Of a DNA stretch of 64,000 nucleotides, positions 19,542-47,996 are shown piece after piece. The position numbers and the translations under genes were made by a program. The notes below the pieces were generated by a model that saw nothing but the letters and a program-made list of their open reading frames with translations, searched no databases and was not told the DNA's origin. The stretch's first letter is position 1, and each line of letters opens with the position of its first letter. Origin of the DNA: Paenibacillus xylanexedens (GTDB taxonomy: Bacteria > Bacillota > Bacilli > Paenibacillales > Paenibacillaceae); assembly GCF_001908275.1 (NCBI RefSeq), contig NZ_CP018620.1, positions 4,774,001 to 4,838,000 on the forward strand, written 5' to 3'.

Positions 19542-19548
19542 GCTCAGT

Positions 19549-29524: not shown

Positions 29525-29552
29525 AGTTTACATAATATTAATTATGTTTAAA
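29525..29552 (+). other. dif-like recombination site, copy 1
   Basis: Three elements in the 11-6-11 spacing of Xer sites: AGTTTACATAA, TATTAA, TTATGTTTAAA. The first arm is identical to the complement of the XerD half TTATGTAAACT of B. subtilis dif as I recall it. The second arm is its imperfect inverted repeat. It lies 82 bp past the stop of the tyrosine recombinase at 29634. Confidence 0.55.
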
Positions 29553-29575
29553 TTTCCTGCATCCCAATCAATAAC

Positions 29576-29606
29576 AAAAAAAGCCTGTCACTTGGACAGA
29601 CTCCTT
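29576..29606 (-). terminator. Terminator of the XerC/D-like gene
   Basis: AGTCTGTC and GACAGGCT arms are followed by TTTTTT on the minus strand, 30 bp past the stop. Confidence 0.85.
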
Positions 29607-29633
29607 TTTGGATCAAATATTGGCTTTTTTCTT

Positions 29634-30554
29634 CTAATATGTCGGAAGTTTAACGTCCAGCAGAGCCATAGCCTCTTCTTTCTCCCTACTGGTTACGTGT
29701 GTGTACACGGTTGTCGTTTGAATCGATGCATGACCAAGCAGTTCCTGTACCGTACGCAAGTCGGCACCACGCCGTAACATCATGGTCGCGAAAGAGTGAC
29801 GCAGCTTATGACTGGAGTAGTTTTGACGTTGATTGGCTGGTGATTCCTGCTGGAAGCGTTCAAAGGTTTCGGTGGATATGAGCTGGATGCTGCGAATCGA
29901 CAGTCTCTTCCCTTTCTGCGAGACAAATAACGCTTCCTCTTTTGGCCGCCAAGGATCGAGACGCTCAGCCATCGCTTGAGATAATACTTTTGCCACAGTC
30001 TCCGGTACAGGGAGCGAGCGCCATTTACGACCTTTACCAAATACATCCAATGTACGCCGCTCCGCATTATAGTCTTTGCAATCCAACGCATGCACTTCTC
30101 CAACCCGTAATCCCATATATCCCATCAATAGAAAAACAGCCAGATTACGTGTACGATACTTGCCTTCTACCGACTCCAAAAAACGTGTCAGCCCACTTTC
30201 ATCAAGGAAAACGGGCGCACGGTTTTTTTCGGTTTTGGATTTCTTGATCCCAAACGCCGGATTATTCGTTAACAATTCGAGTTCAATGAGGGACTTGTAA
30301 AAACAGTTCACCGCCGCATGTTTGCGATTTCTTGTGGCATCACTAACCCCACGCTCTCGCGCGCGGGACAGAAAAGACAACACATGCAGCTTTTTGACCT
30401 GCTCCAGTGACTTTCCTTGAATGGAGATCAGGAATTCCACCACGTCACCCGTGTATGATTTTACCGTATGGCCTGTATATCCGGCGTCCTTCATCCATAT
30501 GTGAAAAGCTTCAAGCTCGTCCGCATATTGCTCCTGAATCTCCTCGGTCATCAT
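29634..30554 (-). CDS. Tyrosine recombinase, XerC/XerD-like
   Basis: A 306-residue site-specific recombinase of Xer size. The N-terminal SAM-like DNA-binding domain covers residues 1-100. The catalytic domain shows the first Arg in [11 protein letters not shown], the Lys in [12 protein letters not shown]-x-x-R as [12 protein letters not shown], the second His in [10 protein letters not shown] and the nucleophilic Tyr in VYTHV. All catalytic residues are present. Xer proteins resolve chromosome dimers at dif, or move integrative elements. It is a monocistronic gene with its own terminator, and a dif-like sequence lies 82 bp downstream. Whether it is the housekeeping XerC or XerD or a third paralogue cannot be told without comparison. 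Confidence 0.88.
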
Positions 30555-30648
30555 CTGTCTACGTCACCTCAATTCGGTTAAAATTGACTAAGATTATTTA
30601 CACGGGCACTGCGATGACAGAACAACCTTCTTAAGCTGAACAGAGCCC

Positions 30649-31728
30649 CTAGGCTTCATCCACAATGACAACGTCAATCAGCGGAATGATCACTTCGGGT
30701 TTGCCTTGACTACGAGTAAGTACAAACGATGGCAATGGATTCTCGTGCAGACCATTCACGGATTCACAGATCTGAGTATATAAATCCATGTGCAACGTCT
30801 CACCTTCACCAGCCACATCAATAACAGGCCAATCGTTCTGAACGCAGGCAGGCCAGTAAGCCAGCTCATTCGCAGGTACGATACTTAATTGCTGAATGGA
30901 CGGATCAATATGGTAGATCCCTTGCCGTTCAGGTTCATCACCCAGCTTGTCCACGGCAAGTATTCCAGCCGACTGCTCATCTGGTGCAGAATAGAGTGAA
31001 TAACACCACGGAGTAACACCCCAGGCGATCGCCATCAGCCCCTCTTCCAGCAACGTATCCGACAGTTCCCCTTCCGCAAATTGTTCGATCAGATTATGGT
31101 TACCCGGTCCCATCAGTTCCTCTACACGTTCAGCGAGTCGAGGCAGGTCAGCGAGAATGAATCCTCCTCTGCCGTAGGAGTCAAATACATGATGGTTTCT
31201 GCTCCACACAGCTTGAGATGGTGAACTCAACAACGCAGCTTCTGCCGGGAAAAGCGATATATATACGGTGATAACCTGCGCGTACTTAACCATTGCAAGC
31301 TGTTCAGGTTCGAGTGTACCTTCAGCAATACGAGGTGTTTTCATATGCAGGGAGATTCGAAGTTCGTATTCCCCCTCTGTAAATACTGACCAACCAAGAT
31401 TAACAGACTGTTCAACGCCTTCAATAGATGCAATGGAGATTGAGCTATCCGGTTTCAGGTTAACAGCATACTGCACGTATGCCAGCTCCTGACCATAGAT
31501 GATATTGGCATCCTGACGATTGACCGGTGAGTCCAACTGTTGTGCAATGACAGATACTTTACGTCCATCCTTCAGAAGGCGCTGCGGATCAATATCTAAC
31601 TGTAGGTCACCTGCACCTCCTGATTGTGAAACAACTAATTGTGCCTCTGCAAGTACGGATGAGTCAGCTAATGCAAATCCAAAAGTTGCATTTTGATGAT
31701 CTGAATTCGTATGTAATGGTGTGTTCAT
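30649..31728 (-). CDS. Hypothetical protein of unknown family
   Basis: A 359-residue cytoplasmic protein with no signal peptide or membrane segment. The N-terminal 170 residues look beta-rich (VSVIAQQLDSPVN; YVQYAVNLKPDSSISIA); the C-terminal half has mixed structure with ILADLPRLAERVEELMG and a cysteine pair region WCYSLYSAPD. I do not recognise it. The start ATG has AGAGGGGATGTATC upstream. Its length and well-placed RBS support a real gene. It is flanked by a recombinase gene and a permease gene but linked to neither. No homology could be tested. Confidence 0.7.
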   Translation of the reverse strand: MNTPLHTNSDHQNATFGFALADSSVLAEAQLVVSQSGGAGDLQLDIDPQRLLKDGRKVSVIAQQLDSPVNRQDANIIYGQELAYVQYAVNLKPDSSISIASIEGVEQSVNLGWSVFTEGEYELRISLHMKTPRIAEGTLEPEQLAMVKYAQVITVYISLFPAEAALLSSPSQAVWSRNHHVFDSYGRGGFILADLPRLAERVEELMGPGNHNLIEQFAEGELSDTLLEEGLMAIAWGVTPWCYSLYSAPDEQSAGILAVDKLGDEPERQGIYHIDPSIQQLSIVPANELAYWPACVQNDWPVIDVAGEGETLHMDLYTQICESVNGLHENPLPSFVLTRSQGKPEVIIPLIDVVIVDEA

Positions 31729-31988
31729 GATACATCCCCTCTCTTATGTCTGATGGCATGTCACATCCCCAAATATATTTCATATTTGTCTTAGCCGCAA
31801 CCCCGACTCCTTGATTAAGTTCGTCACGCCCCTTATTACTTACCCATATATGAAGAAAATTCCAACCTTCCCCTGCTGTTATCATCCTTTATCTTTCTAT
31901 ATAAAAAAAATCCCCTTCCCGCTTCGCCTAAGCGATACGAAATGAGGAAAAATGAAGATATTCTCGGTTAAAGATGTTCTCAACTAAT

Positions 31989-33425
31989 CTATTTATCCTT
32001 CGCTCTGAAAGCACTCGAGATCCGGCGTGCCGGATTCAGATGACTGTAATGACGTCCATACGCAAAGTAGATAATTAATCCAATGATCAACCAAGCAAAA
32101 AACGTAATCCATGTCAGAGCCGCAAGGCGTGTCATCAAGTATACACAACCCAATGCACTCAGAATCGGAATCAGTGGCACAAGTGGAACGCGGAATCCGC
32201 GTTTGAGATCAGGGTTATTTTTACGCAACACAATAATGCCCAGATTTACAACTGCAAAAGCAAACAACGTTCCGATGTTCGTTAGCTCCGCCAGATGTCC
32301 CAACGAGATGAACCCGGAGAACAAAGCCACGATAATGCCCGCAACCCATGTCCCTACCGCTGGTGTCTGACTCTTGCCACTAACTTTGGAGAAGACAGGT
32401 GACAGCAGTCCGTCACGAGACATGGAATAGAGCAAACGTGTCTGACCATACATCATGACCAGCAATACGGTCGTAATGCCGGCAATCGCTCCAAGAGATA
32501 CAATCCAGGATAATCCCTTCAATTGAACAAATTCAAATGCAAACGCAACCGGATCACTTACATTCAACATGTTATAAGGCACAATCCCTGTGAGGATCAA
32601 CGATACAACGATGTAGAGAACGGTACAGATTGCCAGTGACGCAATAATTCCAATCGGCAAATCCCGTTGTGGCTGCTTAACTTCTTCTGCCGCTGTGGAG
32701 ACCGCATCAAATCCGATGTAAGCAAAAAATACCGTAGCTGCTCCAGCTGTTACACCCGAGATACCAAAAGGCAAAAATGGCTGCCAGTTGGTTGGCTCTA
32801 CATAGAAAACACCTACACCAATGAAGATCAGCACCACGATAATTTTAATCGCTACCATGATGCCGTTCGCACGAGCAGCTTCCTTCACCCCTCGGGTAAG
32901 CAGGAAAGTGATAATTAACGTAATGACCGCAGCCGTGATATCAAAATAGGTTCCCTTTTCCGGGCTGAACGCACTCGTAAGCGCATGGGGTAACTCCAGT
33001 CCGAATCCGGACAATAACGTTTGAAAGTATCCAGACCATCCGCTAGCTACCGCCGCACTCGCGAATCCATATTCCAATATCAGATCCCATCCCAGAACCC
33101 AGGCAATCACTTCACCAAAAGCCGTATAGCTATACGTGTACGCACTGCCCGAGGCCGGTATGCTTGAGGCAAATTCCGAGTAACATAATGCCGCGAATGC
33201 ACATATGATACCTGCCAGCAAAAATGACAGTACAAGGCCAGGGCCAGCATACGTTGCGGCAGCTACACCAGTCAGCACAAAAATCCCGGTACCAATAATA
33301 GCTCCTACGCCAAGTGTGGTTAAGTCCAACGGACCGAGCGCCCGATTCAATGCACTGCTGTTATCGCCCGCTGAGGCAATTGATTTTTTACGAAATAATG
33401 AAGATCGTTGTTTGTTCTCACGCAT
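31989..33425 (-). CDS. Amino acid permease (APC superfamily, CAT-like)
   Basis: A 478-residue integral membrane permease with about 12 helices. APC hallmarks are GVGAIIGTGIFVLTG near residue 40, the FAALCYSEFASSIPASGSAYTY segment (read in parts), and FFAYIGFDAVSTAAEEVKQPQRD (read in parts), typical of YfnA/CAT-type cationic amino acid transporters in Bacillus. The start is the second in-frame ATG because GAGAGG is 9 nt from it and only 3 nt from the first. The 515-bp upstream gap contains a palindromic hairpin. Substrate (lysine, arginine or a branched amino acid) not assigned. Confidence 0.88.
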   Translation of the reverse strand: MRENKQRSSLFRKKSIASAGDNSSALNRALGPLDLTTLGVGAIIGTGIFVLTGVAAATYAGPGLVLSFLLAGIICAFAALCYSEFASSIPASGSAYTYSYTAFGEVIAWVLGWDLILEYGFASAAVASGWSGYFQTLLSGFGLELPHALTSAFSPEKGTYFDITAAVITLIITFLLTRGVKEAARANGIMVAIKIIVVLIFIGVGVFYVEPTNWQPFLPFGISGVTAGAATVFFAYIGFDAVSTAAEEVKQPQRDLPIGIIASLAICTVLYIVVSLILTGIVPYNMLNVSDPVAFAFEFVQLKGLSWIVSLGAIAGITTVLLVMMYGQTRLLYSMSRDGLLSPVFSKVSGKSQTPAVGTWVAGIIVALFSGFISLGHLAELTNIGTLFAFAVVNLGIIVLRKNNPDLKRGFRVPLVPLIPILSALGCVYLMTRLAALTWITFFAWLIIGLIIYFAYGRHYSHLNPARRISSAFRAKDK

Positions 33426-33673
33426 AGTCATGTTCCTCTCGTCATGAATCTTGATTGTGCTATGGATGTAGTAGCGATTGGATGGCTTCCCATCTGTTCT
33501 ATGAAAAAGTCGTTTGTTCTATCTTATCGATCACCTATAAAAACCTATCGAATTCTACACGTTATCGCGTTGCTTGGTTAAATTTATTTTTGTAGATCAC
33601 TTATTTTGTTCTTTTTCCGCGGAATTTATCATGATCTGTTGCACGTGGTTGAATATGAAAATGGATTTAAAAC

Positions 33674-33708
33674 AAAACTGCGTATAATTTATATTATGCG
33701 CAGTTTTT
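33674..33708. repeat. Near-perfect 15-bp palindromic hairpin in the permease leader
   Basis: AAAACTGCGTATAAT and ATTATGCGCAGTTTT are separated by 4 nt, with 14 of 15 pairs. On the minus strand it is followed by GTTTTAAAT, weakly T-rich. It lies about 250 bp upstream of the permease start, in a 515-bp gene-free stretch (33426-33946) that otherwise holds only the downstream terminator of the amidohydrolase. Confidence 0.7.
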
Positions 33709-33837
33709 ATGAGCCTATTTTTCCGCAAAAAAACATCTTATATCCCTTGTTATCTGAAGTTTAGAAAAAGAGAGCTCTTTTCGTCTTTTTCTGCTGTATC
33801 TTCCTCCCTTATCCTGTCTAATTCCACGATATGAAGG

Positions 33838-33876
33838 CATGTAAAAGAGCCACATAGCGTTATGCGGCCCTTTATT
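33838..33876 (-). terminator. Terminator of the amidohydrolase gene
   Basis: AAAGGGCC...CATA and TATG...GGCTCTTT arms form an imperfect stem followed by TTAC; the minus-strand T content is modest. About 70 bp past the stop at 33947. Confidence 0.65.
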
Positions 33877-33946
33877 TCTTACTATAGGTAGAGGTGTATA
33901 TAAAAATACGAACTGACTTCATTTCAGGCTTTTATGAAAAAGTAAA

Positions 33947-35317
33947 TTATGAGAAAGCAATTCTCTCTGCATCTGACATCCGGTATTGGGATAACAAATA
34001 ATCTTTGCTTTGCATCGCCGCATGACGAATCGCATCCAGATCAACATTCAACAGCTTACCCTCTCGTTTCACGAGTCTACCTGCCACAAAGACCGTATCC
34101 ACGTTGGATGGATTGGCAAATTGCACAACAGCGCCGATTGGATCATGAACGGGGAACATATTCAGATCGGTGGTACGAATCATGATCAGATCCGCTTCCT
34201 TCCCTGGGGTCAACGTACCCACCTTCTGCTCCAATCCCAATGCTTGGGCACCAGCTGAAGTTGCAAATCTCAGCACTTGGCTGGACTGCAAGTTCAACTC
34301 ACCGGGCATCTCACCCTGCTGCAGAAGTTGTTCATTAGCTCTGGATCGTTCAGCCTGAAGTGCAAACTTCATCTGCGAGAACATATCTCCGCCTGTGGAC
34401 GTCACTACATCTACACCAAGTGTAGGGGTTCCCCCGTGTTCAAGAAAATAGCCGGTGGCCGGATATCCATGACCCATCATCATTTCAACCTCAGGTGTGA
34501 CCGACAAGGAAGCACCGCTATCTGCCAGCATTTTGTATTCATCCATGCCCATGGTGTTACCATGAACGATATTCACCCGTGGACTTAACAGTCCCGCTTC
34601 GTACAATTGACTAATCGAGCGATCCACAGATCCCCAACTGCCAAATCCGGCATGCATGGAACAGATCGCATCCAGTTCTTTTGCTAGCTCGATCTCTTTC
34701 ACGGTTGTATCCCAATGACTGAACTCCGGACCACGAATGGCAAGCCCATAAGTAAGTAATTGATCCTGTGATGAAAAATAACGTTCGTTGACTCTTCTCA
34801 CATCATTATTCGAATACGTGATTTGACTATCCCGATTCCAGTAGTCCGTCTCACCAGGTACTCCGTGAGCAAATACCGCCCGAATGCCAGCATCCTGAAG
34901 TCCACGAATCAGTTCATCCGTATGGTCAGGAGAATACGGCATGCTCCAATCCATTACTGTCGTCACTCCTGCATTAAGCGCTTCCAAGGAACCGAGCAGG
35001 TTGGCAATATAACTATCTTGTGGGCGGAGCTTGCTTCCCATCGCACCATAATAGAGATTTTGCAAATAAACTGGTAACGACCAGTTGGTTCCCGCTGTTT
35101 TGACAAGTGATTCCCACATATGCCGATGTGTGTCCACCAGCCCAGGCATAATAATCATCGATGAAGCATCAATGACCTCCGCATCCGGTATATCCAGGTC
35201 GGGCTGGATCGCCATAATCAGTGAATCCTGAATCAGAACGTCCGCCCTCTTATACTGTCCAATTTTAGCATCCATGGACAACACACAGCCATTTTTCAAC
35301 AGATAACTTGTCCGCAC
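33947..35317 (-). CDS. Amidohydrolase superfamily protein (cytosine deaminase / atrazine chlorohydrolase-like)
   Basis: A 456-residue metal-dependent hydrolase. The metal site MPGLVDTHRHMWES gives HxH as HRH. Further ligands lie in ICSMHAGFGSWG (His), INIVHGN-type VNIVHGNTMG, and the late Asp in TLGVDVVTSTG. The C-terminal TPGKEADLIMI strand and repeated beta composite domain are family typical. Such enzymes deaminate or dechlorinate purines, pyrimidines or triazines. The start is GTG (VRTSYLLK) with GGGAG about 9 nt upstream; a longer in-frame ATG overlaps that site. Unlinked to neighbours. Substrate unassigned. Confidence 0.85.
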   Translation of the reverse strand: MRTSYLLKNGCVLSMDAKIGQYKRADVLIQDSLIMAIQPDLDIPDAEVIDASSMIIMPGLVDTHRHMWESLVKTAGTNWSLPVYLQNLYYGAMGSKLRPQDSYIANLLGSLEALNAGVTTVMDWSMPYSPDHTDELIRGLQDAGIRAVFAHGVPGETDYWNRDSQITYSNNDVRRVNERYFSSQDQLLTYGLAIRGPEFSHWDTTVKEIELAKELDAICSMHAGFGSWGSVDRSISQLYEAGLLSPRVNIVHGNTMGMDEYKMLADSGASLSVTPEVEMMMGHGYPATGYFLEHGGTPTLGVDVVTSTGGDMFSQMKFALQAERSRANEQLLQQGEMPGELNLQSSQVLRFATSAGAQALGLEQKVGTLTPGKEADLIMIRTTDLNMFPVHDPIGAVVQFANPSNVDTVFVAGRLVKREGKLLNVDLDAIRHAAMQSKDYLLSQYRMSDAERIAFS

Positions 35318-35437
35318 AAGAAACATCTCCCATCTATTTTGGTTTGAAAGACGATCACATCCTGCTTACGAATCTGTACTGCTTCTGACTGTTTTTTCGC
35401 TAGTATATATATATTATATAGTTATTGTTAGTATTTA

Positions 35438-35989
35438 TCAATTTTGGAATTTGCGTTTTGCCCGAAATCTTCTAACCTTCATCAGATTGCCACACATCTT
35501 ATCATCACAGTACTTCTGTGTTCTGCTTCGGGTATCATCATAGAACATCCAGCGACAATCCGAATTATCACAGATCCGAATCCTGCCGCCTTCTCCCTCC
35601 ACCAAAGTCAAAGCAAAGTCAGCAGCTACCTCAGCCATAACCTGATGCCAATGTGCTTCTACAGCTACCAGTTGGAGTTTCAGTTCCTCATCAATTGTAG
35701 TCAATGTCCTTCTCACATGCCCTGCTTCCATAACGCCATTCAACCATTGTTTTTCTATATCCGTTAATGATGCTCCAGAAGACAAGCGGGCTCCAAGAGC
35801 TATCAATTCATTCCTGAAATTTCTCATCGACAACTCATCTTCTGGAGATGCAGGAACAGAAGCGTTAAGTTGCCATCGTTCCAGAAAGTCTTGCTGCCAG
35901 CTAGCCTTCCCCAGTCTGTCCTCCGATCGATCTCCCCCACGCCAGTCGTGATAATCGCTGTTTACAAAATCGGTCCATAATCGGTCCAT
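35438..35989 (-). CDS. CGNR zinc-finger (ABATE domain) transcriptional regulator-like protein
   Basis: A 183-residue protein. Residues 1-135 form the ABATE domain; residues 138-180 form the CGNR zinc finger with RICDNSDCRWMFYDDTR, QKYCDDKMCGN and the basic KVRRFRAKR tail, four cysteines in all. Proteins of this type are thought to be stress-inducible transcription regulators. The start ATG has GGAGGTATATAT upstream. It is divergent from the DinB-like gene, and the 145-bp gap has an inverted repeat that could be its operator. Inferred regulator, not demonstrated. Confidence 0.85.
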   Translation of the reverse strand: MDRLWTDFVNSDYHDWRGGDRSEDRLGKASWQQDFLERWQLNASVPASPEDELSMRNFRNELIALGARLSSGASLTDIEKQWLNGVMEAGHVRRTLTTIDEELKLQLVAVEAHWHQVMAEVAADFALTLVEGEGGRIRICDNSDCRWMFYDDTRSRTQKYCDDKMCGNLMKVRRFRAKRKFQN

Positions 35990-36029
35990 ATATATACCTC
36001 CGTTTATGTAACTATCTAATTAAATAAAG

Positions 36030-36073
36030 AAGGTTACAACTCGTCTTTGATGTGTTATATTAAGTGTAACCTT
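36030..36073. promoter_or_regulatory. Inverted repeat, candidate operator in the CGNR-DinB divergent gap
   Basis: AAGGTTACA (36030-36038) is repeated inverted as TGTAACCTT (36065-36073), 9-bp arms 26 bp apart. Two further GTTAC/GTAAC half-sites lie in the same gap (near 36007 and 36094). Operator role is inferred from position. Confidence 0.5.
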
Positions 36074-36133
36074 ATTATTCAGTTTTAGCTAGTTACATCA
36101 CAAATCACAATAATTCGCAAGGAGGAATAAGCA

Positions 36134-36634
36134 ATGACAAAAACAACAGCACTAGATGTGTTACTTATTCAAAAGGATGATACCTGGGATCAATGTAATT
36201 GGATTGTACCTTTGTCGAAATCCTTGGAGGGTCTTACAGCAGAACAAGCAGCCTGGATTCCACCCGCAGGGGGATTGAGCATCTGGCAGTTGGTTAACCA
36301 TATGTATTATTACAACCATCGCTTATTGTGTCGCATGCAAGGTAAGGAGCCTACCCTTCCTTCTGTAGACTCCAATGAATACACATTTGGGAATTCCGGA
36401 GATCCAACGGACGCAGTTGGATGGAATACACTGCTACAGGGTACAACTCGATTAGCCCAGCAGTTGCGAGATCAATTAGCTGCACTACAAGAACCAGATC
36501 TTGAAGCGGCATATATGGACTCCGAAGAGAAATGGGCACACGAACTATCTCGCTGGGTACTCCATGATGCGTATCACGCAGGTCAGATCGTGCTCCTCCG
36601 CAGACAGCAAGGAAGCTGGAAAATCGTTTTCTAA
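36134..36634 (+). CDS. DinB-like metal-binding protein
   Basis: A 166-residue four-helix bundle protein of the DinB/YfiT superfamily. Metal-binding histidines are visible in the helix IWQLVNHMYYYNHRLL and in the C-terminal segment LHDAYHAGQIVLLRRQ. Some relatives transfer bacillithiol or act on toxic thiol compounds; many are unassigned. The start ATG lies after AAGGAGGAATAAGCA. It is transcribed divergently from the CGNR regulator, so probable targets and regulators share the promoter region. Confidence 0.85.
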   Translation: MTKTTALDVLLIQKDDTWDQCNWIVPLSKSLEGLTAEQAAWIPPAGGLSIWQLVNHMYYYNHRLLCRMQGKEPTLPSVDSNEYTFGNSGDPTDAVGWNTLLQGTTRLAQQLRDQLAALQEPDLEAAYMDSEEKWAHELSRWVLHDAYHAGQIVLLRRQQGSWKIVF

Positions 36635-36685
36635 AAAAAATGCTTGAACTGCTAGCGCTTACAGGAATAAGATGAACTTATTAAT

Positions 36686-36714
36686 GTTACAGCTTGTTCA
36701 ACACACTATATAAT
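36686..36714 (+). promoter_or_regulatory. Promoter of the FMN-riboswitch transcript
   Basis: GTTACA (36686-36691) and TATAAT (36709-36714) are separated by 17 bp, close to the SigmaA consensus. It is 6-7 bp upstream of the riboswitch. Confidence 0.65.
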
Positions 36715-36720
36715 TGAATA

Positions 36721-36870
36721 GGATCTTCGGGGTAGGGTGCAATTCCCAACCGGCGGTGATGTTCTTCGGAACCAGCCCGCGACTCGCTATTTGTTCTTAA
36801 CGAAGGACATCTAGCGACTGACTTGGTGTGAATCCAAGGCCGACGGTACAGTCCGGATGAGAGAAGATCA
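36721..36870 (+). ncRNA. FMN riboswitch (RFN element)
   Basis: All conserved blocks of the RFN element are present in order: the P1 stem (GATCTTC at 36722-36728 pairing with GAAGATC at 36863-36869), GGGTAGGGTGCAATTCCC, ACCGGCGGTGAT, AGCCCGCGAC, GACTTGGTGTGAATCCAA, GCCGACGGT and AGTCCGGATGAGAGAAG. It binds FMN and is followed by a terminator, so it should repress the downstream transporter when FMN is abundant. Confidence 0.96.
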
Positions 36871-36926
36871 ACACAATGACATGCCGTTCACGGGAAGGCC
36901 TCTTTCCTGACGCATGTCCTTGGATG

Positions 36927-36967
36927 AGCCCCCGTTTATTTGGTATATGCCAAAACGGGGGCTTTTG
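36927..36967 (+). terminator. Riboswitch-controlled terminator
   Basis: AGCCCCCGTTT pairs with AAACGGGGGCT around a TTGGT/GCCAA inner stem, followed by TTTTGT. It separates the FMN riboswitch from the EamA start codon and is the expression platform. Confidence 0.9.
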
Positions 36968-37016
36968 TCGATTTTGCCAACTGAAGATTCCGTGTTCTGA
37001 CGAAGGAGTCCTGAAT

Positions 37017-37997: not shown

Positions 37998-38045
37998 GTG
38001 GATATATCTGAGGTTCACATATAAACAAATAGTCAAATATAAAAT

Positions 38046-39815: not shown

Positions 39816-39949
39816 AGACGTATTATGTGGTGTGTTAAATTTACCATTGGATGTTCCTGCCTGAGTACAGAGTGCATCGTCATAAAAGTGCATGAAAGCA
39901 TCATCTGCTCCGCATACTGAAAGCAAACAGTAGCGGAGGAATGTAACAG

Positions 39950-40558
39950 ATGAATACGAATCAGCGCCATAAACAGTCTTATCGTATCCCAGCCAAAACG
40001 GGATATGCCCTGAAAGTAAACAAGGGTTCTTTACTACGCATAACGGATCTGGAGGGACAACAAGTCATTGATTTTGTGGCATACGATGCTACGGATGCTA
40101 ACCATCGCTTGGACCCCGGCGTGACAATGGACGTATTGCGTACTTACCGCATTAAACCGGGACAGTTTGTGTATTCCAATCAATACCAACCTTTACTCAA
40201 GATTGTCCGTGACACCGTTGGGGTACATGATTTCTTTAACTCCGCTTGTCGTCCCGAGATGTATGAGGTGTTATACGACAAAAAGGATCACGCGAGTTGT
40301 TATCACAACCTGAACACGGCACTGGAACCCTTCGGGATTCTACCACCAGATCAACACTATCCATTTAACCTGTTTATGAAGTCCGTTGTAGACAGTGAAG
40401 GCAAAATTGATGTTGTAGCTCCCGACTCTCGTGCAGGTGATTATATCGAGATGGAGGCACTAATGGATCTCACAATTGGGCTCTCTGCTTGTCCTTGTGA
40501 AGAAAGCTCATGTAACGGATACAACTGCACCCCAATTCAATTGGATGTGGAACTTTAA
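39950..40558 (+). CDS. DUF1989 (urea carboxylase-associated) family protein
   Basis: A 202-residue cytoplasmic protein of DUF1989. Family segments are IRIPAKTGYAL-like (YRIPAKTGYALKV), LRITDLEGQQVIDFVAYDA, and the C-terminal cysteine cluster LSACPCEESSCNGYNCTPI, possibly metal binding. DUF1989 proteins occur beside urea carboxylase, allophanate hydrolase or nitrogen-compound transport genes. Here the neighbour is an amidase, suggesting nitrogen-source use. The start ATG has GGAGGAATGTAACAG upstream. Function not established. Confidence 0.82.
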   Translation: MNTNQRHKQSYRIPAKTGYALKVNKGSLLRITDLEGQQVIDFVAYDATDANHRLDPGVTMDVLRTYRIKPGQFVYSNQYQPLLKIVRDTVGVHDFFNSACRPEMYEVLYDKKDHASCYHNLNTALEPFGILPPDQHYPFNLFMKSVVDSEGKIDVVAPDSRAGDYIEMEALMDLTIGLSACPCEESSCNGYNCTPIQLDVEL

Positions 40559-40691
40559 CAGAATAACAAGGCCTTGACGCAGTATGAGATAAAAGTAGTT
40601 TGTTCTAATTCACTCCTTGCGGGAATACGATGACTTGTACCCATTTTCTGTGACAACTGGTACAATTCATCGAACCCGTTAAGGAGTGAAC

Positions 40692-41324
40692 GTGTTTATG
40701 TCTGTACTGTTCAGTTATATCATTCTGGGAATATCATTGTCCGCTCCAATTGGTCCGATTAACGCCGCCCAACTCGACCGTGGAGCCCGCCACGGATTCA
40801 TGCATGCCTGGATTCTAGGACTCGGCGCTATGTTTGCAGACTTGGTGTATATGCTGCTGATTTATTTTGGAGTTGCCCATTTTCTGGACACGCCGTTCAT
40901 GCGCTCTTTTCTCTGGTCATTTGGCAGTTTTATTCTGATTTACACGGGAGTGGAAACGCTCTCGAAGCTGAAGCAAGGCATTCAAGGTACATCTACTGCG
41001 GAAGCGACTGTTCGGAAATCGTTTATATCCGGATTTTTGATGGCCCTGTCCAATCCACTGAATATTTTATTTTGGCTTGGGATCTACGGCTCTATTCTCG
41101 CGACAACTGTGAAGCATACGGACACGGCTCATTTGCTGCTCTACAGTTCAGGCATATTCATTGGTATTCTGGTGTGGGATGTCATTATGGCTGGCATGGC
41201 CAGTCGATTCCACAAACATAGCAGTGAGAATGTATTGCGCTGGATCTCTATCATTTCGGGAATCTGCCTGATCGGATTTGGTTTGTATTTTGGGTACGAA
41301 GCTGTACGTTCCATTTTTTTCTGA
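40692..41324 (+). CDS. LysE family amino acid exporter-like protein
   Basis: A 210-residue membrane protein with about six helices. The LysE/RhtB signature is present: GISLSAPIGPINAAQLDRGARHGF, read as SLSAPIGPIN followed by GARHGF, plus FLMALSNPLNILFWLGIYG. Members export amino acids or related metabolites. The start is GTG (or ATG 6 nt later) after AAGGAGTGAAC. An extended -10-like TGGTACAAT lies about 20 bp before the RBS. The YcgG-like gene follows on the same strand. Substrate unknown. Confidence 0.85.
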   Translation: MFMSVLFSYIILGISLSAPIGPINAAQLDRGARHGFMHAWILGLGAMFADLVYMLLIYFGVAHFLDTPFMRSFLWSFGSFILIYTGVETLSKLKQGIQGTSTAEATVRKSFISGFLMALSNPLNILFWLGIYGSILATTVKHTDTAHLLLYSSGIFIGILVWDVIMAGMASRFHKHSSENVLRWISIISGICLIGFGLYFGYEAVRSIFF

Positions 41325-41348
41325 CAACAAAATCAGGCTGGACAGTCA

Positions 41349-41401
41349 CCCAACTTCCCCCACATTAATACTGTAACGGTATCATGTGGAATGGAGTTGG
41401 G
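41349..41401 (+). promoter_or_regulatory. Hairpin covering the ribosome binding site of the YcgG-like gene
   Basis: CCCAACTTCC...CCACAT (41349-41365) can pair with ATGTGG...GGAGTTGGG (41384-41401), with an inner ATAC/GTAT pair. The 3' arm includes the GGAG of the next gene, so folding would block its Shine-Dalgarno site. It is not followed by T residues. Confidence 0.5.
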
Positions 41402-41406
41402 AATCA

Positions 41407-42168
41407 ATGGCGGAGCTGTATAGTGCCGACGAAATAAACACCTTGTTTGAGCGTCTTCCATCTTGGCAGCAGGACGCTTATTCGCAATTTGGTAAAATGA
41501 TCGCCGACGAAGATAATACGTATCCATGTGTACCTGGACGAATGGGGTTTCTGTCAGGACATTTGAGGTACGGATTTACGTGTGACCCCCGATCTGAACA
41601 TGCTGCCGAAGATATGGCAGATCTGCTTAGACAATATGGTCCTGTCTCCAGAGACACCGGTCATTATGCTTCCATGGTCGTGATCTGTGAGACGCCAAGT
41701 GATCTGAAAGATCATACAACCGTAGAGCAATATCAGACGTTATTCTGGCAAATGCTTAATCGGGTAAGTTCACACGATACCGAGCCGTGGCCGGAACATA
41801 TTTCAACCGATCCTCATGATTCATCATGGGAGTTTTGCTTTGGCGGAGAGCCTTACTTTTGTTTCTGTGCAACTCCTGCACATGAACTCCGAGCCAGCCG
41901 TCATTTTCCTTATCTCATGTTTGCTTTTCAACCGCGGTGGGTATTCGAATCCATTAATGACAACACCCCTCTTGGTCGTAAAATGAAAACCTTGATTCGC
42001 AAACGTCTCGCTGCGTATGATGCTGTACCTGCTCACCCTTCGCTGATGTGGTATGGTCAGCAGGATAATCTGGAATGGAAACAGTATTTCCTGCCTGATG
42101 ATGAGCAGACACCTTCCAAATGTCCATTCATGCGGATGAAGCAAGCCTTAGGCAAGTTGACGAAATAA
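41407..42168 (+). CDS. YqcI/YcgG family protein
   Basis: A 253-residue cytoplasmic protein close in length to B. subtilis YcgG. Family landmarks are YPCVPGRMGFLSGHLRYGF (read as YPCVPG and GHLRYGF), EFCFGGEPYFCFCATPAH and the late LMWYGQQDNLEWKQYFLP. No function is known; a haem- or metal-binding role is suggested for the family by its Cys/His residues but is unproven. The start ATG (MAELYSADE) follows a GGAGTTGGGAATCA Shine-Dalgarno that lies inside a hairpin. It ends before a convergent permease. Confidence 0.85.
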   Translation: MAELYSADEINTLFERLPSWQQDAYSQFGKMIADEDNTYPCVPGRMGFLSGHLRYGFTCDPRSEHAAEDMADLLRQYGPVSRDTGHYASMVVICETPSDLKDHTTVEQYQTLFWQMLNRVSSHDTEPWPEHISTDPHDSSWEFCFGGEPYFCFCATPAHELRASRHFPYLMFAFQPRWVFESINDNTPLGRKMKTLIRKRLAAYDAVPAHPSLMWYGQQDNLEWKQYFLPDDEQTPSKCPFMRMKQALGKLTK

Positions 42169-42224
42169 CCTTAAAACACTCATTAATCCGTTATACGACC
42201 TCCACAAGAGTTGCTGAGAGTTGC

Positions 42225-43571
42225 TTATGGTTTGGATGGAGCTGACTGTGGTGGTTTCGAGCCACGTACCTTATAAACAACATACGTGATGATCCCAAGG
42301 AACACCAAAAGTCCCACACTTGCCAGCAGACCCGTTCTGCTGGCTTTTTCCATCGCTGTCCCAGCCACAGCAGCCACAATTAACACTATGGCAATCCACA
42401 CTTTGATGCGATTCCACTTCACGGGCTTCATTTTTTTAATGTACGTGATGCAGATGAGTAGCCATGTATACATTAATACCAGACTACCTGCTGTCGTCAC
42501 ATATTCAAACAAACTCTTGGGCATCCATAATGCCATCAACGTAGATAGGACTAATCCAGCCGCTGTGCAACACAATGCTTGAAGTGGCATGTCCTTTTTT
42601 CCCCAGGTCTTCGTGAACAGCTTTGGTGCATCTCCATCTTCCGCGAGTTTCACCAACATGGACGTAATGGCATATAACGAAGCCACCATCGTCGAGAATC
42701 CGGCTATAATCAGAATTCCGTTGAGAATGTGGACCACAACAGTGAATCCAATGGTTGACATGGCTTTGACAAGCGGACTTTCATCTGGAGTTAACTGAGC
42801 TGAAGGTACAAGCAACAGGATCAACGCAATTGAAATCACATAGAGTGTACTGACCGATAATAACATTACTCGACCTGATTTCACTGCATCTTTTGGTTCT
42901 TTCAGGTTAGCTGCCATCAAGCCCATAACCTCGATTCCGGCAAAAGCAAAGAATGCATAGATAAAACCGGTCCATACGCCTTTCCCCCCATGCGGGAACC
43001 ATTCATTCTTCAATTGCTCGGGTGTGACTTTTACAGGTAACCAACCCAGACAAGCCGCTCCTGCTATAGCTATAAATGCAACCGTTGCAGCAAGTTTGAT
43101 TACAGCAAGAATATTCTCCGTTTTGGTTAATCCCTTCGCTCCCAGTGCAGCAATGAACAGACCTATAGCGGCATAGATCGCAACAAATGCCCATAGCGGA
43201 AACTTGGGAAACCAGAATTGAGAGAACAGCCCAAGTGCCGTTAATGAGCTGCCCATGATGAGCATTTCAGAGAACCAGTACATCCATCCACTACCAAAAC
43301 CAGCCCAAGGTCCGAATGCTTCGCCCGCATACGTTCGAAAAGCGCCTTCCTTTGGATCATCTGCAGTCATCTGTGCCAGCGCACCAAATACAAAGTAAGT
43401 ACCTGCCGCCGCCAGCACCAACAATATAAGTACGGATATGCCGGCCCAATGAATCGCGAGACTGGTTCCAAGAAAAAATCCCGTTCCCAGTGTGCAACCC
43501 GCGCCAAACAAGGATAGGCTGAACCAACTTAGTTTTTCGTCGTCGTTTTTACGGTGTTGCTGACTTTTCAT
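42225..43571 (-). CDS. Amino acid permease (APC superfamily)
   Basis: A 448-residue membrane permease with about 12 helices. Segments LSWFSLSLFGAGCTLGTGFFLGTS and FIYAFFAFAGIEVMGLMAANLKEPKDAV (read in parts) match the amino acid-polyamine-organocation pattern, with the helix-1 Gly-rich break (GCTLGTG). The C-terminus has a charged tail (YKVRGSKPPQSAPSKP). The start ATG has GGAGGAGCTTC upstream. The substrate is unknown. Its upstream region holds the dif-like copy 2 and a 627-bp AT-rich gap. Confidence 0.86.
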   Translation of the reverse strand: MKSQQHRKNDDEKLSWFSLSLFGAGCTLGTGFFLGTSLAIHWAGISVLILLVLAAAGTYFVFGALAQMTADDPKEGAFRTYAGEAFGPWAGFGSGWMYWFSEMLIMGSSLTALGLFSQFWFPKFPLWAFVAIYAAIGLFIAALGAKGLTKTENILAVIKLAATVAFIAIAGAACLGWLPVKVTPEQLKNEWFPHGGKGVWTGFIYAFFAFAGIEVMGLMAANLKEPKDAVKSGRVMLLSVSTLYVISIALILLLVPSAQLTPDESPLVKAMSTIGFTVVVHILNGILIIAGFSTMVASLYAITSMLVKLAEDGDAPKLFTKTWGKKDMPLQALCCTAAGLVLSTLMALWMPKSLFEYVTTAGSLVLMYTWLLICITYIKKMKPVKWNRIKVWIAIVLIVAAVAGTAMEKASRTGLLASVGLLVFLGIITYVVYKVRGSKPPQSAPSKP

Positions 43572-43653
43572 GAAGCTCCTCCTTCTGCCTTATCCCCTTA
43601 CGATTTACAGGTCATGGAGGTTTTATGTCTGTATTGCCAAAAGAATTATTGTT

Positions 43654-43681
43654 AGTTTACATAATAATAAATATGTTATAA
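43654..43681 (+). other. dif-like recombination site, copy 2
   Basis: AGTTTACATAA, TAATAA, ATATGTTATAA in an 11-6-11 arrangement. The first arm is the same exact XerD-type half as in copies 1 and 3 and has the same orientation. It lies 83 bp upstream of a permease start, without an adjacent recombinase gene, so it could be a chance relative or an operator. Confidence 0.4.
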
Positions 43682-43871
43682 TCATTCTGATAATGAATTT
43701 AAGCTGTATGCTTTTAGGCATTATTCATAAAGTTATATTTTCAATTTGATTTAAATCTACAAAAAAAGTGGTTGACTTCAATCGCTTAGAATGGTTTCCA
43801 TTTTAAACTTGGTGGTGTGTCAATGTGGCTGTATGAGCGATGGTAACTAAGGTGAGAAACTGATTTTTCTA

Positions 43872-43895
43872 TTGTGAATTTTTCATATGTTGAAA
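43872..43895 (+). repeat. 24-bp direct repeat, copy A
   Basis: TTGTGAATTTTTCATATG plus TTGAAA is repeated identically at 44113. The gap 43572-44198 between the permease and the aldo/keto reductase contains no gene. It is AT-rich, and this repeat pair plus the dif-like copy 2 are its only evident structures apart from the terminator at 44158. Confidence 0.7.
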
Positions 43896-44112
43896 TTTTA
43901 TAAATTAAGTCGTTATTTCTTTTAAATTGAACGCAGACTGCCTATTTTTTGTATTATCTCAATAGCTTTATCGTTTTTTATAGATTTAGTTGTTTTAAAG
44001 AAGGGCTACTTCCTGGGATTTTCCTCTTTCATCCTTTTTCACCCGTTTCGGACTAAGCTGACGTATAGGTATTGTTCTCTATTATTTTTCACAGCCTCTT
44101 TTCCAATAATTG

Positions 44113-44136
44113 TTGTGAATTTTTCATATGTTGAAA
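44113..44136 (+). repeat. 24-bp direct repeat, copy B
   Basis: Identical to the 24 bp at 43872-43895, 217 bp away. The sequence between and outside the copies is unrelated. It may be a remnant of a small repeated element or a regulatory site pair. Confidence 0.7.
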
Positions 44137-44157
44137 ATATTTTATATTTTTTTCATA

Positions 44158-44184
44158 AAAAAAGCCGCCATAATGGCGGCTTCG
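44158..44184 (-). terminator. Terminator of the aldo/keto reductase gene
   Basis: A perfect AAGCCGCCAT / ATGGCGGCTT stem is followed by TTTTTAT on the minus strand. Confidence 0.9.
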
Positions 44185-44198
44185 CGAATATTTCCAAA

Positions 44199-45092
44199 TT
44201 AAGTCCGGCCAGTCCAATCTGCTCCGGCGATTTCTTTCCATCGTGCTCTAATATCATCATACAGTTCCTGCAGGAGTGGCCCCTTAGCCACAAGATCAGC
44301 ATTTTGCTGCCAGCGATTGGGCTTGGCTGTTCCTACAATAGCTGTGTCTACACCTTCAGTACTTAGCGTAAAACGCAGTGCTGTCTCCACCGCTGCCTGG
44401 GCATCTTCACCCAGAAAACCATAGTTAAGTTCGCTTAAGCGCTTCCAGTATATAAATGGATAAGCCTCTTCCGAAAGTGTTTCATACGTCCAGGCCGCAT
44501 TGGCAATTGGTCTTTTCGCGATTACACCCATGTTTCTTTTTCTTGCCTCAGGCAACGTAAGATCAATTGCTTCCTGATCTGCGATATTTAATGAAGTCTC
44601 CAGACTGTCAAATACTCCGGTCTGAATCGCATATAGCGCATCTGTTGTATCCCCACTGTATCCGATAAACCTGGTCTTACCTGATTCCTTGGCACGCTGT
44701 AGCACTTCGATCACTGCTCCTTGTCGGAGTACTTCTTCGGAGCAGCTATGCAAATGGATAACATCCACATAGTCGGTTTTCAGCCGTTTCAGACTACGGT
44801 CAATCGTTTGCTCCAGTACTTTGGCATCCCAATCCGGACCTTCGATCCCGGCAGCATGTCCACATTTGGTGAATAAATAGTAGTCATCACGCCGACGTGA
44901 CAACACCTCGCCGATTAATTCCTCGCTGTCACCGTAACATTCAGCCGTGTCTATCACGTTTAATCCAGCATCCAGGGCACTATTCAGCAATGTTGCTACA
45001 TCCGTTTTGGATACATTTTTGCCTATTTCCGCTCCGCCAAATCCAAGTGTACTTACGTTCATGCCAGTATTACCGTACTTGCGCGTTTCCAT
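44199..45092 (-). CDS. Aldo/keto reductase
   Basis: A 297-residue NADPH-dependent aldo/keto reductase with (beta/alpha)8 fold. The tetrad is visible: Asp in NVIDTAECYGDS, Tyr in the same segment, Lys in YYLFTKCGHA, and His in DYVDVIHLHSC. The C-terminal AIVGTAKPNRWQQN is the usual NADP-binding site. The start ATG has GGAGGAAGATAACC upstream. The substrate is unknown. The next upstream gene on the same strand is an SDR. Confidence 0.88.
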   Translation of the reverse strand: METRKYGNTGMNVSTLGFGGAEIGKNVSKTDVATLLNSALDAGLNVIDTAECYGDSEELIGEVLSRRRDDYYLFTKCGHAAGIEGPDWDAKVLEQTIDRSLKRLKTDYVDVIHLHSCSEEVLRQGAVIEVLQRAKESGKTRFIGYSGDTTDALYAIQTGVFDSLETSLNIADQEAIDLTLPEARKRNMGVIAKRPIANAAWTYETLSEEAYPFIYWKRLSELNYGFLGEDAQAAVETALRFTLSTEGVDTAIVGTAKPNRWQQNADLVAKGPLLQELYDDIRARWKEIAGADWTGRT

Positions 45093-45226
45093 GGTTATCT
45101 TCCTCCAAGTTCAGTGAATTGGGTACAGATAAATAGAAATACAGATTAACTTCAACTTCCCTTATGTTATTACCCATGAGTTGGTTATGCCACCCACTTT
45201 TCTAAACTACAACCAACTTCATTTAC

Positions 45227-46000
45227 TTAGAAGCCATAAATGGACATTCCACCGTCAACCAATAACGTCTGACCCGTTATGTATCCCGCTGCATCTGATG
45301 CCAGGAATACAACCGGCCCTACCACTTCTTCGAGTTCTCCCACTCGCTGTAGCGGTGTACGGCTTACAATTTCCTGCAAATACTGGGGATCATCCAGCAG
45401 TTTTTCAGTCAGAGGTGTTCGGAAATACCATGGTCCTACTGAATTGACACGGATTCCATACTTGCCCCATTCCAGTGCGAGCACTTTGGTCATATGAATT
45501 AACGCAGCTTTGGTCGCGCCATATACAACCCCTGTCCGCAAAGCCGTGTGACCGCCTACCGAAGAGATGTTAATGATCTTCCCAGTCCCACGTTCTTTCA
45601 TATGCTGACCCGCCAATTGCGAAGCGAAGAAAGCCGATTTTAAGTTTGTCTGCATGATGGTCTCCCACTGCTCGTCCGTCACTTCAAGTGCTGGAGTCCG
45701 TATGTTCATACCTGCGTTATTCACCAGAATGTCCAGACTACCCATCTCCGAGATCGCCTCTTGAAACGTCTCTTCCATTTGTTCTTTTGATGTCACATCC
45801 GCCGTCAGAGCTAGCGCTTTACGCCCTGTCTGTTCATAGATATAGGCGGCTGTCTCCTCAATTTCTTTCATTGTACGAGATACAAGTACAACGTCACAGC
45901 CTGACTGGGCAAGTCCAATCGCAATTGCTTTTCCGATTCCTCTCCCCGCACCTGTCACCAGTGCTGTCTGTCCATCAAGATGGAATGTGGGTACGTTCAT
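45227..46000 (-). CDS. SDR family oxidoreductase (gluconate 5-dehydrogenase-like)
   Basis: A 257-residue short-chain dehydrogenase. TGAGRGIG, NNAGMN, INISSVGGHTAL, the active site VYGATK and a C-terminal GYITGQTLLVDGGMS are all present. The pattern resembles gluconate or 2-dehydro-3-deoxygluconate dehydrogenases, but I cannot confirm the substrate. The start ATG (MNVPTFHL) is chosen for AAGGAG 8 nt upstream; the upstream GTG overlaps that site. Confidence 0.88.
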   Translation of the reverse strand: MNVPTFHLDGQTALVTGAGRGIGKAIAIGLAQSGCDVVLVSRTMKEIEETAAYIYEQTGRKALALTADVTSKEQMEETFQEAISEMGSLDILVNNAGMNIRTPALEVTDEQWETIMQTNLKSAFFASQLAGQHMKERGTGKIINISSVGGHTALRTGVVYGATKAALIHMTKVLALEWGKYGIRVNSVGPWYFRTPLTEKLLDDPQYLQEIVSRTPLQRVGELEEVVGPVVFLASDAAGYITGQTLLVDGGMSIYGF

Positions 46001-46078
46001 GCCACTCACTCCTTCATCAGATTCTTTATTTCAGCATTCAAGCAGAATGCTTTATATGTAGGTAAACCCCGATAGGAA

Positions 46079-46567
46079 TCAGGTTACAAAATACTGGCTT
46101 GGATTGCCTAGCTCCGGATGGAACTTTTCTCGAAAACGGCCTCCGGTATAATCCCCTATAATTTTTCGCCAGAACGCCTGCGCAATGACATTGTTACGAA
46201 CCTGAGTCACTTTCCATCTTCCTGGAAAACGTTTAAACAGCTCATAGGCTGCCCGAGTGCCCACCCCACTGCGCCGATATTTTTGCATCACAAAAAACTC
46301 AGTCAAATAGTAGTCGTTATCCTTACTTCCAGGCTCCAATTTTTCCACCAGAGCAAACCCTGCAGGTGCCCCATCACTTGTAATCAAAAAAGGAAACTTG
46401 CTGTCCTCTTCTGCCCAGAATGCCTCCAGACCGGGATATTCCGGAAAAATGCCGTTACTGTCCACGTCAATATTCAGATATTTAGTAAAATCATATAGAT
46501 AAAATTGCATTAAATGACGAATCACCTGACTTCGTTCCCGGGGAACCAGTTCTATTTTCATATTCAT
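46079..46567 (-). CDS. GNAT family N-acetyltransferase
   Basis: A 162-residue GNAT protein. The acetyl-CoA motif is FFVMQKYRRSGVGTRAA, preceded by the strand YLTEFFV and followed by a segment NNVIAQAFWRKI with the usual Asn. Substrate unknown. The start ATG has GAGGTGAACCGG about 8 nt upstream, and a close GTG was rejected for poor spacing. It is on the same strand as the SDR, 78 bp upstream. Confidence 0.85.
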   Translation of the reverse strand: MNMKIELVPRERSQVIRHLMQFYLYDFTKYLNIDVDSNGIFPEYPGLEAFWAEEDSKFPFLITSDGAPAGFALVEKLEPGSKDNDYYLTEFFVMQKYRRSGVGTRAAYELFKRFPGRWKVTQVRNNVIAQAFWRKIIGDYTGGRFREKFHPELGNPSQYFVT

Positions 46568-46760
46568 CCGGTTCACCTCCTCTGCTCTACGTATACTAAT
46601 TACTTTAAAGGTTTACGCGCCGAAGGGCAAGGAAGCATACTCTACTTACTGCCTGCTTTGGTGAACAAGCTGTGAGCATGTAAATTATGGTACACTAGAG
46701 CATAGAATACTATTAAATTGAATATTCATTTTATATGTTTTTCACATGGAGGTGTCGAAC

Positions 46761-47852
46761 TTGACCAACGTGCAAAAAGAGATTGATCGACGCAAGCTGG
46801 ATGACAAACTACCTTCCATGCCTTGGTTCGTTCAGCAATTCATGGACTACAAGCTGCCTGACCTGTCCCCCTCTACCCTGCTCGAATATCTGAGAGATTA
46901 CGAAGCTTTCTTTGGATGGTTGCGAGCAGAAGGGCTGTCCGAGGCAAGTTCTAATAAAGAAGTAACTTTGAATGAACTGGAAGTCCTACGCATGGATTCA
47001 GTTACCGCCTATCGGTTATTTCTCACAACCAAACGGGAAGGAACAAACTCCAGAATTACCGTCTCTCGCAAACTCTCTTCCCTTCGCTCCCTTTTCCATT
47101 ACCTGAGCCAGATTGCGGAAGATGAAGACTTTTATCCTTTGCTGAAGCGGAACATTATGGCCAAAATCGAGATCAAGCGTACCCATAAACCCAAGGACAC
47201 CGCTGCCAAACTCAAAGGTAAAATTCTGGAGGAAGAGGAACTGCTGGAATTTATCGGCTATATCCTTGAAGGTTACGCTGTTGATATGGAGAAGAACAAA
47301 CAGGCACTGTACTCCCATGAAATCAACAAAGAACGGGACGCCTGTATTGCCAGCCTGATTCTGAATTCCGGCTTACGGGTGTCGGAAGTTGTGAACCTGA
47401 ACGTCGATGATCTCGATCTGAACAACAAACTCCTGTATGTTTATCGCAAAGGTAACAATGATGAGACGTACAAAACACCCGTTTATTTCAGGGAGCAAGC
47501 CAAGGACGAACTCGCAACTTATATGAACCTGCGGCAATCACGTTACCGTACGCCCAAGCGGGAGAAAGGTCTGTTCATTGCTTTGCGTAACGGAGATTCA
47601 GAAGGCAGTCGAATGACCAAAAGAGCGATTCAGGCCATGATCATGAAATACGCCAAGCGCTTTGGCAAACCCTACTTGACCGTGCACAAATTACGCCACT
47701 CATTCGCAACCGACTATTATTTGCAAAATGATATTTACAAAACGAAGGAGCAGCTTGGACACGCTTCTACGGAAACAACCGAGATCTATGCTCACCTTAC
47801 CGACAAAACGATGTCCGAAGCCATCGAACGTCGTACTGATGACGGGATGTAA
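46761..47852 (+). CDS. xerS: Tyrosine recombinase XerS-like
   Basis: A 363-residue tyrosine recombinase longer than XerC/D, with an extended N-terminal domain (about 170 residues) like the streptococcal single recombinase XerS. The catalytic residues are Arg in NSGLRVSEVVNL, Lys in VYRKGNNDETYKTP, H-x-x-R as [14 protein letters not shown], His in EQLGHASTETTE and Tyr in EIYAHLT. The start is TTG, 6 nt after GGAGGTG. XerS in streptococci acts on a difSL site close to its gene. A dif-like sequence lies 117 bp past this gene's stop. The name is by resemblance. Confidence 0.83.
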   Translation: MTNVQKEIDRRKLDDKLPSMPWFVQQFMDYKLPDLSPSTLLEYLRDYEAFFGWLRAEGLSEASSNKEVTLNELEVLRMDSVTAYRLFLTTKREGTNSRITVSRKLSSLRSLFHYLSQIAEDEDFYPLLKRNIMAKIEIKRTHKPKDTAAKLKGKILEEEELLEFIGYILEGYAVDMEKNKQALYSHEINKERDACIASLILNSGLRVSEVVNLNVDDLDLNNKLLYVYRKGNNDETYKTPVYFREQAKDELATYMNLRQSRYRTPKREKGLFIALRNGDSEGSRMTKRAIQAMIMKYAKRFGKPYLTVHKLRHSFATDYYLQNDIYKTKEQLGHASTETTEIYAHLTDKTMSEAIERRTDDGM

Positions 47853-47867
47853 CATCCCAAACATAAT

Positions 47868-47929
47868 AAAAGCAGCAAACCGCATCAAGGATTTCGATCC
47901 GAGAAAGGTCTGCTGCTTTTTGTTTTTTT
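47868..47929 (+). terminator. Terminator after xerS
   Basis: AAAGCAGCA and TGCTGCTTT arms with an inner stem are followed by TTGTTTTTTT. Confidence 0.85.
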
Positions 47930-47968
47930 GCCTCATTCAAGGAGAAGAGCGCAAGCAAGAAATAATTC

Positions 47969-47996
47969 AGTTTACATAATAATAATTACGTTATTT
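47969..47996 (+). other. dif-like recombination site, copy 3
   Basis: AGTTTACATAA, TAATAA, TTACGTTATTT in an 11-6-11 arrangement. The first arm is identical to copies 1 and 2 and in the same orientation. It lies in the convergent gap after xerS, 117 bp beyond its stop, and before mobB. Confidence 0.55.

Follow-up and report, generated by a model that had tools for sequence, protein, structure and literature searches.

XerD-type inverted repeats clustered in the terminus region of Paenibacillus xylanexedens as predicted sites of SMC unloading

We analysed a window of 64,000 nucleotides from the chromosome of Paenibacillus xylanexedens (NCBI RefSeq assembly GCF_001908275.1, contig NZ_CP018620.1), which corresponds to positions 4774001-4838000 of the 7.05-Mb contig and contains three copies of a 28-bp inverted repeat with the layout of a dif site. 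Together with a fourth copy outside the window, these repeats (sites A to D) probably form a terminus set of predicted XerD-binding sites that work like the XDS of Bacillus subtilis, at which SMC complexes would be unloaded without recombination. In the accessible parts of four papers, XerD is described as unloading SMC at the terminus of B. subtilis (PMC12322038, PMC8242196, PMC8669397, PMC13220808), and the unloading site is called XDS in the accessible part of a fifth (PMC10945525). No work that joins Paenibacillus, a dif site and XerD was found among the papers searched, and for Paenibacillus, SMC, the terminus and XerD together the single match was a phage paper.

All three copies in the window are located on the plus strand. 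Site B (29525..29552; AGTTTACATAA-tattaa-TTATGTTTAAA) is an XerD-type inverted repeat 81 bp from the end of a gene for an XerC-like recombinase (29634), site C (43654..43681; AGTTTACATAA-taataa-ATATGTTATAA) lies 82 bp upstream of a minus-strand permease gene, and site D (47969..47996; AGTTTACATAA-taataa-TTACGTTATTT) starts 116 bp beyond the stop codon of xerS (47852); sites B and D occupy convergent gaps. The three copies, including their centres and right arms, had been described in the initial annotation, and its description was confirmed. Site A, at position 4731073 of the contig and therefore outside the window, is found 72 kb from site B on the same strand and with one mismatch. The shared arm AGTTTACATAA equals the complement of the right (XerD) half of B. 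subtilis dif at 11 of 11 positions, so that the correspondence first proposed agrees with the sequence ACTTCCTAGAATATATATTATGTAAACT printed in the part of PMC3025954 that was available. It is this right half that RipX (XerD) prefers, according to the accessible text of PMC5357621. The second arm of the sites is similar to an inverted XerD half, and the 6-bp spacing is that of dif.

Within the window, AGTTTACATAA has no matches other than these three, all on the plus strand, and 100 dinucleotide shuffles gave a mean of 0.04 and a maximum of 1. Across the whole genome the bare 11-mer shows no excess, with 8 matches versus 8 (3+5) for the reversed control. When the inverted right arm was required as well (at most 3 mismatches), 5 matches were obtained and the reversed control gave 0. 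These are B, C, D and A, with 0-1 mismatches, and a weak match at 4643324 on the other strand with 3 mismatches. This genome-wide search, which had been suggested as a check, supports the sites as real; they lie in the terminus region. The four good sites of the 7.05-Mb chromosome are on one strand and span no more than 91 kb. In agreement with an XDS-like function, they contain the XerD half-site sequence and are present in several copies, all of them in the terminus region.

The sites are widespread among relatives. Of 75 genomes of the genus, 74 contain a match with at most 2 mismatches, and none contains the reversed pattern. In a sample of the order 150 of 198 genomes match and 10 have a single reversed match, and in a sample of the class 64 of 299 match, namely all 27 genomes drawn from the own family and 37 of the 272 others, with one reversed match. 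In 20 regions of ~20 kb each, around the XerC-like gene of genus genomes that we picked, 53 distinct sites (76 counting both strands) were found in 399 kb, versus 1 in the reversed sequence. The matches cluster. Within the clade of the window their orientation is uniform and the spacing alike, with 49-72 kb between A and B, 14 kb between B and C, and 4.3-4.5 kb between C and D in the four genomes compared (G000, G003, G033, G049). Four genomes of family f32 (G413, G438, G454, G494) carry two to three sites in the same orientation across 180-265 kb, and other genomes of this family have sites in both orientations or none. At site D the first arm has a mean identity of 99% and the flanks 52% and 46% (n=20, the window and those 19 of 80 xerS loci with a site), a contrast that is partly by construction, as the rows were selected by the site match. 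Perfect palindromes, AGTTTACATAA-N6-TTATGTAAACT, which consist of two XerD halves, were observed in G009, G018, G026 and G028.

The cumulative GC skew of the P. xylanexedens genome peaks at 4642618. Sites A, B, C and D are 88, 161, 175 and 179 kb away from this switch, all to one side of it. As even the nearest site is 88 kb from the switch, sites A-D are probably not dif. In G028 the skew peak is at 2959717 and five sites are located at 3.064-3.105 Mb, and in G024 (peak at 2466929) three sites are 46-56 kb away and one is 6 kb away; for G013 the available stretch ends short of the switch. The origin of the P. xylanexedens chromosome, as judged by skew, lies between 704 and 740 kb, which gives arms of ~3.92 and 3.13 Mb and places A-D on the shorter one. 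In G003, where the contig start is dnaA by reading of the translation, the sites are at 57-58% of the chromosome, likewise on the shorter arm. The initial annotation had considered one true dif accompanied by decoys, a suggestion that is wrong in detail, with none of its three sites at the skew switch. A canonical B. subtilis-type dif was not detected in the genome at 3 mismatches.

A better candidate for dif is located at the switch itself. Element F, outside the window (C1:4642572-4642597; L163:2573), comprises the 26 bp TATGTACAAAATACGRGTTTTGTGAA and is an inverted repeat around TACGRG. In an alignment of nine genomes around a further site, E, a 30-mer at the skew peak is conserved throughout. 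F is present without mismatch in 12 genus genomes (G000, G001, G003, G024, G028, G033, G036, G049, G051, G052, G053, G055), which are those with the switch region covered and from which the pattern was derived, the search being limited to stretches of sequence. With 2 mismatches, F also occurs in L224 of G078, a genome of another family of the order; with up to 5 mismatches allowed, 4.58 Mb of reversed sequence gave 0 matches. The distance from F to the skew maximum, as determined from stretches of 40 kb (nine genomes) or 200-540 kb (G000, G024, G028), is ~0.2 kb or less in 11 of the 12 genomes and 2.1 kb in G003. At up to 9 mismatches G000, G024 and G028 each have a single strong match (0-3 mismatches), the remainder having 8-9, and the numbers of matches and control matches are 7/7 in G000, 8/7 in G028, 4/0 in G013 and 3/1 in G024.

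In L224, F lies upstream of a full-length xerS, which scores 360 bits with NF003462 (cut-off 267), at a distance of ~85 bp; beyond the stop codon of this xerS, an XerD-type site follows after ~55 bp and a second copy after another 1.1 kb. In G028, F adjoins a fragment of xerS (50.9% identity over the last third), and the full xerS is at 3093029. F and xerS are separated by 178 kb in P. xylanexedens. The position of F at the skew switch, beside xerS in L224 and beside the xerS fragment in G028 suggests that F is the likely dif and XerS the likely recombinase acting on it. In G028 (L256, ~19376-19910 and beyond) repeats of the GACACAAAGTT type, in either orientation, come after the xerS fragment beside F, and G052 contains a 34-residue xerS-like scrap 12 kb from F.

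Site E (C1:4643320-4643347, minus strand; GGTTTACATAA-ttatta-TGGTGTTTTCA) consists of the XerD arm and a second arm that differs, and lies 0.7 kb from the skew peak and from F. E-type matches occur without mismatch in 7 genomes and with at most 3 mismatches in 16 of 75. In 8 of 10 genomes tested, E is 0.6-2.9 kb from the skew maximum; the distance is 13 kb in G055, and in G054, where the stretch analysed has no switch, the match is 18 kb from the highest skew value. Six of the 16 genomes were set aside: in G034, G054 and G065 the match resembles another site, and in G029, G040 and G068 E is not on the same contig as the sites. In the remaining 10, all 34 sites are on the strand opposite E. As these genomes are related, the 34 sites represent one inherited layout and not 34 events. 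E itself was considered as the dif and demoted, since F is nearer to the switch in every genome with both elements covered, G055 included, and F occurs in G024 and G028 without E. E is possibly a remnant of an older dif.

Of the Xer proteins, the P. xylanexedens genome encodes XerD, in a fur-xerD-punA neighbourhood (gene names read from translations), the XerC-like protein and XerS. The XerC-like neighbour of site B (29634..30554, minus strand) is an XerC/D-like tyrosine recombinase of 306 aa with the catalytic residues present by eye. It reaches 202 bits with TIGR02224 at a cut-off of 335 and falls under the NCBI cut-offs for both XerC and XerD. Among the matches listed, many other genus genomes show similar scores of ~200-206 bits with the XerC model. 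The tyrosine recombinase XerS (46746..47852, plus strand; 368 aa) scores 381 bits with NF003462 (cut-off 267). An XerC above the NCBI cut-off was found in 0 of the 75 genus genomes, and in 2 of 14 genomes of a control set.

The proximity of sites to recombinase genes, which had first drawn attention to the repeats, is conserved for one of the two genes. Of 20 genus genomes, 16 carry a site 10-162 bp beyond the stop of the XerC-like gene, and a more permissive cut-off adds G005 as a seventeenth; no site follows this stop in G007, G008 and G051. At xerS, by the same cut-off, a site lies at most 500 bp beyond the stop in 13 of 80 retained loci (77 of them labelled Paenibacillus), all with at least 93% protein identity, and in 19 of 80 by a looser rule. 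Hence, the adjacency of B is genus-wide, while D is next to xerS in close relatives only, the arrangement reappearing in L224. One record among those of Paenibacillus, L073, is titled Neobacillus mesonae and has an xerS 84% identical to that of the window; its label may be wrong. Upstream of xerS, a 35-bp element (window 46602-46640) is degenerate in the window, but several relatives have it as the inverted repeat ATAACTTTG...CAAGGTTAT. As a difSL-like site this element was rejected, as it is clear in only part of the 80 loci, degenerate in the window and off the switch.

XerD of P. xylanexedens (C1:5246089-5246958; L015) has, like that of the whole clade of the window, a rewritten catalytic-tyrosine segment. 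The segment reads GHVEQPGQQY compared to GH(A/S)DISTTQIY elsewhere; it is one residue shorter, and STTQ is gone. All 20 clade genomes that were retrieved have it, one of them with A for P. Among the best 120 of 7999 matches, 58 of 58 clade proteins carry the rewritten segment (57 with GHVEQPGQQY and one with GHVEQSNNPY), and the rest comprise 59 canonical segments and 3 that were unreadable by script. When aligned to Escherichia coli XerD, the tyrosine still finds its counterpart if a gap is placed immediately before it. The recombinase activity of the clade XerD thus appears doubtful from its sequence, though it may persist. NCBI naming omits XerD for many of the clade proteins.

XerD and the sites persist without an XerC over the cut-off, and the tyrosine segment of the clade XerD is rewritten, both of which support an XDS-like role. 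We infer that XerD would bind the sites through one strong half-site and a second, inverted half-site, and that SMC complexes arriving from the origin would be unloaded by the bound XerD without any recombination. With arms of unequal length, SMC on the shorter arm would meet A-D before F; the clade sites, present only on this arm, may thus catch those complexes that get to the terminus first. Chromosome dimers would more likely be resolved by XerS at F, outside the window. Unloading of SMC by XerD is reportedly independent of its catalytic residue and of XerC (Karaboja et al., 2021). In a more far-reaching scenario, which we put forward tentatively, XerS acting at F took over dimer resolution in Paenibacillus from XerCD-dif, XerC disappeared, and XerD was kept only as an SMC unloader at palindromic sites, the clade XerD being non-recombining and its sites, on the shorter arm only, remaining under selection.

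As far as the available descriptions of the B. subtilis XDS go, the sites resemble it in the XerD half-site, the several copies, the terminus region and the location apart from the likely dimer-resolution site. In contrast to XDS, they are paired inverted XerD half-sites, which are perfect palindromes in some relatives, and the clade copies are all on the shorter arm; the host also differs, with no XerC over the cut-off and an altered tyrosine segment in the clade XerD. With the XerCD dif, as described in the accessible text, they have in common the 11-6-11 layout and an arm that matches the XerD half exactly, but they lack an XerC-type arm, occur in four copies and are off the skew switch. 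The layout of F is like that of difSL and difH, as these are presented in parts of PMC5357621 and PMC2731167. F shares with the difSL-XerS system of streptococci and lactococci, in the portions consulted, an inverted repeat at the skew switch and, in another family, the position next to xerS, but its sequence is unlike difSL, and 178 kb separate it from xerS in P. xylanexedens. The three sites of the window are themselves dissimilar to difSL, and site D is not linked to xerS across species (13/80 loci, close relatives). In the matS-MatP system of E. coli, both the protein and the sequence are different from XerD and the Paenibacillus sites. Far fewer sites are present in Paenibacillus than in that system, which is comparable in that multiple terminus sites would exclude the SMC complex, as stated in the accessible parts of PMC8669397 and PMC10945525.

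Several observations weigh against unloading sites of the XDS type. In the order sample 48 of 198 genomes are without a match, members of the own family among them. The likeness to XDS was drawn from descriptions in other papers. The loss of XerC depends on a score cut-off, and the P. xylanexedens XerD is also below its own (307 versus 330 bits); a further recombinase, L014, reaches 260 bits with the XerC model. Site E, which has an XerD arm and is found 0.7 kb from F, may represent a second dif. The genus-wide link between the XerC-like gene and site B is unexplained by unloading and may indicate a recombination module after all, and a homologue of RTP (PF02334), encoded in 74 of 75 genus genomes, would be compatible with a polar fork trap.

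It is unlikely, though it survives best among the alternatives, that the neighbouring recombinases act on the sites, the XerC-like protein on B and XerS on D, in the manner of the single-recombinase modules xerS-difSL and xerH-difH. The 28-bp dif geometry would fit such modules, as would the presence, in 16 of 20 genomes, of a site at most 162 bp beyond the stop of the XerC-like gene, site D beyond xerS in 13 of 80 loci and the XerD-type site ~55 bp beyond xerS in another family. However, recombination would be expected to delete direct repeats, and several such copies are present with a spacing kept in relatives; the sites are off the GC-skew switch, the PF00589 matches listed include no recombinase gene close to site A, and none was found beside site C. 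The action of each recombinase on its adjacent site, as first proposed, is not supported, with the xerS arrangement confined to 13 of 80 loci and F, 178 kb away, a better candidate for XerS. Nothing observed points to excision of the 18 kb between copies, which the direct orientation had suggested; relatives retain both the direct repeats and the distances between them.

We consider it quite improbable that the RTP homologue binds the sites and that they serve as polar barriers to replication forks. In favour of a fork trap, A-D share one orientation on one arm, opposite to E, and the skew switch is sharp and off-centre. A fork trap consists of two opposing groups of sites, as described in the available part of PMC13220808; such groups are not seen unless E is counted, as A-D are on one arm and one strand. 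Moreover, the exact XerD half-sites with dif spacing speak against such barriers, and the perfect palindromes of relatives would lack polarity. In the terminus regions of four genomes, matches to a Ter consensus with at most 6 mismatches did not exceed those of the reversed control. The RTP gene of P. xylanexedens (C1:3490474-3490824) is 1.15 Mb from the skew switch and 1.2 Mb from the nearest site, and this latter distance is 0.4-1.4 Mb in the other genomes compared. With TATGTAC and AAAT in common with this Ter consensus, F rather than sites A-D could be an RTP site. Ordinary regulator operators or hairpins that share an AT-rich palindrome by chance, as the position of site C 82 bp upstream of the permease gene might suggest, are a very improbable explanation in view of the terminus clustering, the single orientation in the clade, the convergent gaps of B and D and the identity of the XerD arm.

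XerD is known to unload SMC in B. subtilis, and where one protein performs both recombination and unloading the two are hard to separate. Paenibacillus seems to provide a natural separation, as it has no XerC by the curated model and another recombinase with its own likely terminus site, while XerD and its sites are kept. This separation, together with the changed XerD catalytic segment of one clade, makes a catalysis-free role of XerD testable by comparison. The defined sites, their defined offset from the dif candidate and their one-sided layout may further be used to test models of how the journey of SMC ends on arms of unequal length. In the more far-reaching scenario, the clade XerD would be a recombinase that has stopped recombining and whose binding sites are still selected.

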